Below, piece by piece: positions 37,083 to 39,594 of a stretch of 40,421 nt of DNA. The DNA lies in the NCBI GenBank assembly GCA_905235815.1, contig CAJOMT010000002.1, positions 1-40,421 of the forward strand, written 5' to 3'. This DNA is from an uncultured Clostridia bacterium (lineage in GTDB: Bacteria; Bacillota; Clostridia; Christensenellales; Borkfalkiaceae). Below the pieces are notes generated by a model. The model did no database searches and had not been told where the DNA came from. It was given only the letters and a program-made list of their open reading frames with translations. The position numbers were made by a program, and so were the translations under genes. Each line of letters begins with the position of its first letter. Position 1 is the first letter of the stretch.

Positions 37083-39530
37083 ATGGTTAAAAAATACACG
37101 ATTAGCGGTATGACTTGTTCCGCATGTTCTGCGACGGTTGAACGGAGCGTAAGTAAAATTGACGGCGCGGAAAAAGTTACCGTAAACTTAATAAGCGGAA
37201 TACTTTCCGTCGAAATGCAAGAGGACTTGACGCCGTCTATAATCGCTGCGGTGAAAGCGGCAGGGTACGGCATAAAAGAAGGTTCTACTCATTCGAGGGA
37301 TAGGGGGCAAGCAAGAAAACTGAGAAATCGCCTTATCGTTTCTATTCCGCTCGTCGTTATATTGATGTATATATCAATGGGGCACATGATAGGACTCCCT
37401 TTGCCTCATTTTCTGCACGAACCGTTTTATTTTGCGCTGTCGCAAGCGATAATCGCCTTGCCGGTAATGATAATTAACGGCAAGTATTTTACGAGCGGTT
37501 TCAAGAAATTGTTTACGGGCAAGCCGAATATGGACTCCCTCGTCGCGCTGGGCGCTTTTACATCTTATGCATACGGCGTGTTTGCGCTCGTAATGATAGG
37601 GCTTAAAAAGGACGTAGACTTATATAAAAACAATCTGTATTTCGAGGGTGCGGCGATGATACTGACGCTTATCACCGTCGGAAAATACTTGGAAGAGAAG
37701 TCGAAGAATAAGACGATGAGCGCCGTCGAAAAACTTCTCGATTTAACGCCCGATACCGCCGTTATTTTGATAGACGGCGTCGAAACGGAAATAAAGACCG
37801 CAGACCTTAAAAAGGGCGATATAGTCGTATTAAAGAGCGGTTATACCGTTCCTGCCGACGGCGAAATAATAAGCGGCGGAGGCTTGGCGGACGAATCCGT
37901 CATAACGGGCGAGAGCATACCCGTTTATAAAAACGTGGGCGATAAAGTCGTCTGCGGCACGAGTTTCAGCGGCGGCTATGCGCTATTTCGGGCTGAAAAC
38001 GTCGGCGAGGACTCGACCGTTTTCAAAATAGTAAAACTCGTCGAGGACGCAAATTCGACCAAAGTTCCGATTGCGAGAGTTGCGGATAAAGTCGCCGGCA
38101 TTTTCGTCCCGACAGTAATTGCCATTGCTATTACGGCGTTTGCCGTGTGGTTGATAGCCGGCGAAAGCGTTCAGTTTGCGGTAAATATTGCGGTAAGCGT
38201 CTTGGTCGTTTCTTGCCCTTGCGCATTAGGGCTTGCCACTCCTGCCGCCTTAATGGCAGGCACGGGGAAGTCTGCCGAAAACGGCATACTCGTCAAAAGC
38301 GGAGCGGCTTTGCAGTCGCTTGCGTCCGTAAATTACGTCGTGCTCGATAAGACGGGAACTATAACGTTCGGTAAGCCCGAAATTGACGTTTACGAACATA
38401 TAGGCGGACTTTCAGATAAAGAATTTATAGGTTTATGCGCCTCGTTAGAGGGTTTGAGTTCGCATATTTTGGCTGAACCCATAGTAAAGGCGGCAGAGGA
38501 AATCGGCGCCGAAAAATATGAAATCACAAATTTTGAGAGCATAGCCGGCAAAGGCGTAAAGGGCGACTTTGGCGATAGAACAATAATAATCGGCAACCGA
38601 GAATTGATGACCGAGAGCGGCGTTTCTACAAAGGTCTACGACGATAAAGTGGCAGCCGCAGAGGGTAGCGGCTCGACGGTGCTGTTCTGTTCGTTTAACG
38701 GGCAAATGACGGGCTATATAGCGATAAAAGATAAAATAAAGCCGACGAGCGTAGCGGCGATAAATGAGTTTAAAGAGAAGAATATCGGAATTCTGATGCT
38801 GACGGGCGATAGCGACGGAGCGGCGAGCGCAGTTGCGGAAGAACTCGGTATAGAATATAGGTCAAAGGTTTTGCCGAGTGATAAGCATACTTACGTCAAG
38901 GCGTTGATGGACGAAGGCAAGTGCGTTATGATGATAGGCGACGGCGTAAACGACGCCCCCGCATTAACTCAGGCGAACGTCGGGGCGGCGATAGGCGCCG
39001 GCACCGATATAGCGATAGAGAGTGCGGACGTAGTGCTGATAAGAAACGACCTATGCGACGCAGTCGAGGCGGTGAACCTCGGCAGGGCGGTAATGCGTAA
39101 TATCAAAGAGAATTTGTTTTGGGCGTTTTTCTATAATATAATATTGATACCGATAGCGTGCGGAGCGCTATATGCGCCGACGGGCATACTGTTAAACCCG
39201 ATGCTTGCCTCGCTTGCGATGAGTTTATCGAGTATTTTCGTAGTCGGTAACGCATTGAGATTAAGATTTTTTAAATTTAAAACAAAAAATATAAAAACCG
39301 AAGGAGAAGAAACTATGTTTTGCAAAAAGAATAAGACAGTCGTGCATATCGACGGAATGATGTGCGAGCATTGCCAAAAGAGGGTAGAGACGGTGCTTTC
39401 CGAGTTCGGAAGCGTAAAAGTCGATTTAAAGAAAAAGACAGCCGAGATAATCGACTGTACCGCTGAAAACGATGAGATTGTAAAGGCGATCGACGAGGCG
39501 GGATACAAGGTAACCGAGATAGAGAGATAA
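37083..39530 (+). CDS. copA: Copper-translocating P-type ATPase with N- and C-terminal HMA domains
   Basis: N-terminal HMA (SGMTCSACSATVE), SCPCALGLATPAAL, DKTGTITFGKP, MIGDGVNDAPAL, C-terminal HMA (IDGMMCEHCQKRVE). Confidence 0.95.
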   Translation: MVKKYTISGMTCSACSATVERSVSKIDGAEKVTVNLISGILSVEMQEDLTPSIIAAVKAAGYGIKEGSTHSRDRGQARKLRNRLIVSIPLVVILMYISMGHMIGLPLPHFLHEPFYFALSQAIIALPVMIINGKYFTSGFKKLFTGKPNMDSLVALGAFTSYAYGVFALVMIGLKKDVDLYKNNLYFEGAAMILTLITVGKYLEEKSKNKTMSAVEKLLDLTPDTAVILIDGVETEIKTADLKKGDIVVLKSGYTVPADGEIISGGGLADESVITGESIPVYKNVGDKVVCGTSFSGGYALFRAENVGEDSTVFKIVKLVEDANSTKVPIARVADKVAGIFVPTVIAIAITAFAVWLIAGESVQFAVNIAVSVLVVSCPCALGLATPAALMAGTGKSAENGILVKSGAALQSLASVNYVVLDKTGTITFGKPEIDVYEHIGGLSDKEFIGLCASLEGLSSHILAEPIVKAAEEIGAEKYEITNFESIAGKGVKGDFGDRTIIIGNRELMTESGVSTKVYDDKVAAAEGSGSTVLFCSFNGQMTGYIAIKDKIKPTSVAAINEFKEKNIGILMLTGDSDGAASAVAEELGIEYRSKVLPSDKHTYVKALMDEGKCVMMIGDGVNDAPALTQANVGAAIGAGTDIAIESADVVLIRNDLCDAVEAVNLGRAVMRNIKENLFWAFFYNIILIPIACGALYAPTGILLNPMLASLAMSLSSIFVVGNALRLRFFKFKTKNIKTEGEETMFCKKNKTVVHIDGMMCEHCQKRVETVLSEFGSVKVDLKKKTAEIIDCTAENDEIVKAIDEAGYKVTEIER
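39315..39530 (+). CDS. Possible independently translated CopZ-like copper chaperone (in-frame internal start inside copA)
   Basis: AAGGAG at 39301-39306, 8 nt before in-frame ATG 39315; product MFCKKNKTVVHIDGMMCEHCQKRVETVLSEF... (71 aa). Confidence 0.45.
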   Translation: MFCKKNKTVVHIDGMMCEHCQKRVETVLSEFGSVKVDLKKKTAEIIDCTAENDEIVKAIDEAGYKVTEIER

Positions 39531-39543
39531 TTTTAGCCTAATA

Positions 39544-39594
39544 AAAATGCGGACAATATCGTGTATTTTAACGATATTGTCCGCATTTTATTTT
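39544..39594. terminator. Rho-independent (probably bidirectional) terminator after copA
   Basis: Perfect 19-bp inverted repeat 39544-39562/39571-39589, 8-nt loop, flanking A and T tracts. Confidence 0.9.

Follow-up and report, generated by a model that had tools for sequence, protein, structure and literature searches.

Does a copper ATPase gene whose reading frame continues into a chaperone-like domain, and which carries a Shine-Dalgarno (SD) sequence and a start codon just ahead of that domain, make one protein or two? In many Firmicutes, copZ is a separate gene beside copA. In E. coli, the copA gene is said to undergo frameshifting, an observation credited to Meydan 2017 and Drees 2017. 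The question is raised here by a stretch of 40,421 nucleotides (hereafter, the window) from an uncultured clostridial bacterium, near the end of which copA and a copZ-like sequence form a single open reading frame.

The Fused Gene and Its Domains

The copA-copZ fused ORF (37083..39530, forward strand, as are all of the window's features described below) encodes 815 aa comprising an N-terminal HMA domain, a Cu(I) P1B-1 ATPase core, a linker, and a C-terminal HMA domain. The ATPase scores 542.6 bits against the copper-subfamily model TIGR01511 (cut-off 397) and has relatives in the PDB (3j09, 3rfu, and 7r0g), while in an 18-sequence alignment the CPC, DKTGT, GDGxND, YN, and MSxSS motifs are invariant and TGE is nearly so. 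The ORF product is thus identified from its sequence as a Cu(I) P1B-1 ATPase (CopA); for Cu(I) export itself there are no assay data. The first-pass annotation held that the ORF runs on past the ATPase into a complete second HMA domain, and this is borne out by a frame free of stops across both HMA domains and the core, together with a full PF00403 match (residues 9-65; 45.4 bits versus a cut-off of 24.8) in the final 71 aa.

The two HMA domains differ in their metal-binding motifs. The N-terminal domain (residues 5-62; 37095..37268; PF00403) carries GMTCSAC, of the ATPase-type CxAC, whereas the C-terminal domain (39339..39509) carries GMMCEHC, of the chaperone-type CxHC. Among relatives, CxAC is found in 121 of 130 N-terminal domains and CxHC in 236 of 252 fused C-terminal domains, as well as in 16 of 19 split CopZ proteins. 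Because the tail shares CxHC with split CopZ, as opposed to the CxAC of the N-terminal domain, it looks, by its motif, like a captured CopZ. The predicted free chaperone (39315..39530; 71 aa; PF00403), inferred from the conserved internal start described below, has PDB relatives that include CopZ (1k0v, 1cpz, and 2qif) and the C-terminal domain of Archaeoglobus fulgidus CopA (3fry). It misses the CopZ equivalog cut-offs of NCBIfam (best NF047957, with 48.9 bits versus 85), and for this reason we refer to it as CopZ-like.

Between the last transmembrane helix and this domain lies an A-rich, poorly conserved linker (39258..39314). AlphaFold assigns pLDDT values below 50 to residues 736-749, among them the internal Met 745, and a confident, complete beta-alpha-beta-beta-alpha-beta fold to residues 751-814; on this model the distal linker is probably disordered, and the C-terminal domain satisfies the structural requirement for CopZ, namely one HMA of ferredoxin-like fold bearing MxCxxC. 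Just 3' of the copA stop, a very stable hairpin leading into a T-rich tail (39544..39594; MFE -34.2 kcal/mol, z -9.9) is a probable intrinsic terminator, and its position would give both predicted products a common mRNA end.

The Internal Shine-Dalgarno Sequence and Start Codon

The internal SD, AAGGAG (39301..39306), is followed after a spacer of 8 nt by an ATG (39315..39317; codon 745) in the ORF's own frame. Its anti-SD duplex energy of -8.8 kcal/mol makes it stronger than the SD of the gene itself (-6.5 kcal/mol), and both elements are conserved in relatives, the start as ATG, GTG, or TTG. The coordinates first reported for the SD, spacer, ATG, and 71-aa product were all confirmed exactly.

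An internal promoter giving a copZ-only transcript was considered and rejected; no sigma-70-like site was found just 5' of the internal start, and such sites are no more numerous in the region than in shuffled sequences. A frameshift of the E. coli type was also rejected, as the window gene has no suitable slippery heptamer just after its N-terminal HMA domain; within its first 300 codons, X XXY YYZ heptamers are limited to CCCTTTG (codon 105) and AAAGGGC (codon 243).

Conservation of the Internal Start

The first-pass annotation proposed aligning copA homologs from related genomes as a check on its reading, and such a comparison was made with 252 distinct fused C-termini from relatives, mostly metagenome-assembled genomes. 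The search profile was built from fused genes and therefore favors them, a bias that affects estimates of prevalence but not the nucleotide-level tests. Split pairs also occur, and in 236 of the 252 fused genes (94%) the last HMA domain is preceded by a start codon and an SD, the latter counted at an energy of -5 kcal/mol or better.

Such a pattern might have a trivial cause. If only the fusion matters, with the C-terminal HMA having a regulatory, metal-binding role like that in Archaeoglobus CopA, then the Met and the SD would be incidental to a linker rich in Lys, Glu, and Gly. C-terminal HMA domains of CopA are already known (3fry), and Lys/Glu-rich linkers do raise the background of SD-like sequences; when the protein is held fixed and codons are redrawn from each gene's own usage, 80.7 of 242 candidate starts (33%) are expected to have an SD of -7 kcal/mol or lower. 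The observed count in fused homologs, however, is 210 of 242 (87%; z = 20.8). Of the 4779 other in-frame ATGs in these genes, just 6.3% reach -7 kcal/mol. Furthermore, each of the three codon phases is represented among the SD cores (141/73/17), which means that the core does not simply follow from a Lys-Glu or Gly-Glu motif. Even within the window's genus, most genes read AAA GGA G and two (L005 and L006) read AAG GAG. The SD is also coupled to a start codon, given that 204 of 211 genes with a linker SD core (97%) have an in-frame ATG, GTG, or TTG 4-11 nt further on, compared with 217 of 1295 SD cores (17%) elsewhere in the same ORFs. Finally, at least five genes have a strong SD followed by GTG (L181, L182, L374, and L377) or TTG (L408) at the start position, a pattern characteristic of initiation codons and not of a site where the protein requires Met. 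An incidental SD and Met is, on this evidence, very improbable.

Two features of the mRNA point the same way. Predicted folding at the start is weaker than in synonymous recodings (-5.85 versus -8.42 kcal/mol; p about 1e-13), and folding in the start region is weaker than at other in-frame ATGs (-5.4 versus -18.1 kcal/mol). The comparative data thus indicate that selection on the internal start signal acts through the DNA sequence and not via the protein. Conservation of the SD and start at the nucleotide level fulfills, as a matter of sequence evidence, a criterion for functional in-frame internal initiation; for the short product there are no detection data.

An internal SD could instead act as a pause signal, allowing the last membrane helix to insert before the cytosolic domain is made, with no second protein produced. 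The location of the window's SD, roughly 15 codons past the last transmembrane helix, would suit such a role. Pausing would not call for a start codon, whereas 97% of the genes with a linker SD core have one in frame at SD spacing, and GTG or TTG can stand in for ATG. In addition, linker length ranges from 11 to 112 residues, and in three genes that encode a tandem of C-terminal HMA domains (L211, L221, and L404) the SD-start pair stands ahead of the second domain only, so that the signal tracks the final domain rather than the membrane helix. We regard pausing alone as a highly doubtful explanation. Two further genes (L239 and L248) have two C-terminal HMA domains in a row and no SD-start pair.

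The signal is absent from 16 fused genes, two of them from the window's own genus (L013 and L014). Some start-less fusions are accompanied by a replacement copZ; in L085, a separate HMA gene stands right behind the fused, start-less HMA, and replacements are possible in three other genomes (G382, G046, and G349). No obvious replacement copZ was found for the start-less fusion of G036, and the correlation between start-less fusions and replacement genes is only suggestive.

Distribution and Age of the Fusion

The fused gene is present in most of the window's genus and widely in its family and order. At the class level, 179 of 391 genomes have a match at E 1e-62 or better, and among the class matches listed, most are open across both parts. 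Named carriers of the fusion include Ruminococcus albus and Hornefia butyriciproducens, and it also occurs in contigs from Oscillospiraceae, Lachnospiraceae, Blautia MAGs, a Tissierellia MAG, and a Spirochaetia MAG. Linkers differ in sequence among the fused genes and cannot be aligned. As a side observation, one CopA from the window's genus (L017, in G009) ends directly after the last membrane helix; no HMA was found downstream of it or anywhere in that draft genome, which is 86% complete.

The first-pass annotation offered, as an alternative to dual products, a recent copA/copZ fusion that had kept the old ribosome-binding site. In this account, loss of a stop in the window's lineage joined the two genes, and what remains of the former copZ start, the SD and ATG, is not under selection. 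Relatives do make stop loss a likely origin for the fusion, since the tree set contains 18 separate copA|copZ pairs, and in one relative (L030) the two genes share an ATGA overlap, the SD being located within the 3' end of copA. What the account fails to accommodate, besides the strong synonymous-level selection described above, is the age of the arrangement, which is common to genus, family, order, and class. On a FastTree phylogeny of 317 ATPase cores, whose modest support renders the counts of changes approximate, the division into fused and unfused genes requires 9 changes, and the presence or absence of an internal start among the fused ones requires 13. One clade of 175 genes, with a total length of 62.9 protein changes per site, contains 170 fused genes, of which 158 have the start and SD. 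By inference, and to an order of magnitude only, a neutral five-base SD core would have been lost many times over such a tree, and a neutral Lys/Glu-rich linker of about 30 codons, many of them one step from a stop, would also be expected to have been lost repeatedly. Because of these expected losses, it seems that the read-through fusion and the internal start are both under selection to be retained. Given that the two persist through deep divergence, the recent fusion with a relic site is rejected, and we assign it very little credence.

Finally, the possibility that the two genes are in truth separate, with the intervening stop or frameshift masked by a sequencing or assembly error, which the first-pass annotation also raised and which a draft source genome of 179 contigs might suggest, is ruled out for practical purposes by the same open fusion, with different linkers, in well over 200 independently assembled genes.

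Neighboring Genes and Other Small HMA Proteins

A gene for a csoR-like, metal-sensing repressor lies directly 3' of about 52 of the 252 fused genes (by pattern match, with three checked against PF02583). No csoR match was found in the window's genome, nor was any other CopZ-type HMA. The only third HMA in that genome is a protein with the motif DLDCANC, which is encoded on contig C60 (L003; 1120-3139), where an ArsR-type regulator, the 78-aa DLDCANC HMA protein, and a cadA-like ATPase stand in a row. The three make up a distinct Zn/Cd-type system that includes a free HMA protein. Relatives L322, L323, L415, L419, and L428 also encode a related protein with the motif LDCANC. A second recurrent family of small HMA proteins, of about 91-99 aa, is distinct from CopZ, has a CxMCExH metal site, and ends C-terminally in a YEKKGLFSFLKK-like tail; its members are found downstream of copA in L085, and in L410, L414, L418, L426, and L427.

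A Model for Two Proteins from One Gene

We consider it very likely, judging from sequence comparisons alone, that the fused copA-copZ gene makes two proteins from one mRNA by internal initiation. Ribosomes starting at 37083 would produce the 815-aa copper-exporting ATPase, with its CopZ-like domain tethered C-terminally by a flexible linker, while other 30S subunits would bind the internal SD at 39301-39306 within an unstructured, A-rich stretch. Ordinary 30S initiation at 39315 would then release a free 71-aa copper chaperone that could supply the pump with Cu(I). Three elements of this model are inferred: that ribosomes do initiate at 39315, how much of each product is made, and that the free one delivers Cu(I). 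An SD and an ATG inside an ORF are no proof of initiation, and no profiling, proteomics, reporter, or other translation data are available. Also weighing against the model are the 16 fused genes without the signal, not all of them in genomes with an obvious substitute copZ, the score of the 71-aa product below the CopZ cut-offs, and the predominance of metagenome-assembled genomes in the set. Nonetheless, the proposal made at the outset, that of a fusion accompanied by a free chaperone made at an internal start, receives strong support from the conservation in 236 of 252 genes, the selection at synonymous positions, the GTG/TTG swaps, and the placement before the last HMA domain. The weak folding around the start, the chaperone-type motif of the tail, the split pairs in relatives, the lack of another CopZ-type HMA in the window's genome, and the csoR-like neighbors of some fused genes also speak for it.

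Taken more broadly, it is quite probable that much of a bacterial class (apparently Clostridia) has merged copA with copZ, that selection has preserved the fusion in its open state together with its internal start, and that tethered and free chaperones would come from one mRNA, in an arrangement that would be ancient and convergent with E. coli frameshifting. No prior description of internal translation of CopA/CopZ, of such internal starts, or of clostridial fusions was found in the open-access literature; as subscription journals were mostly not covered, an earlier report is not excluded. If the model is true, a free chaperone is hidden as the apparent tail of CopA in hundreds of gut and environmental species. 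The separate, overlapping, fused, and doubly fused genes described above form a natural series for studying how neighboring genes merge while keeping independent products, and they make it possible to test why copper pumps need a tethered plus a free chaperone domain.

Comparison with Known Systems

Like the copA-copZ operons of Firmicutes, the fused gene places the same two activities next to one another, with the copZ part following copA and having its own SD and start, and in some cases with a csoR-like gene 3' of the pair. Unlike those operons, there is no stop between the two parts, and the pump therefore also bears a tethered chaperone domain. We know of no reported free C-terminal domain from Archaeoglobus fulgidus CopA. 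That protein nevertheless resembles the window's CopA in having both N- and C-terminal HMA domains (3fry).

In-frame internal starts within large genes are known from unrelated systems. For example, Cas11 is translated from inside cas8, as has been shown experimentally for Haloferax Cas11b, among others (PMC11899642). The likeness lies in a small protein that is also part of a large one; the proteins and their function are unrelated, and the internal product is experimental there and only predicted here.

A parallel in function is seen in E. coli, where a programmed -1 frameshift in copA yields the complete Cu(I) ATPase together with a free chaperone roughly 70 aa long (PMC5009743; PMC7558416). 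In both cases, one gene would provide a Cu(I) ATPase and a free, one-HMA chaperone of about 70 aa, the latter being a prediction for the window. The means differ, however, in that frameshifting frees the N-terminal HMA domain in E. coli, whereas internal initiation would supply the C-terminal one here. A pump and a chaperone from a single copA are thus already known by way of E. coli frameshifting, and the fused gene, if our reading is true, represents a different and widespread route.
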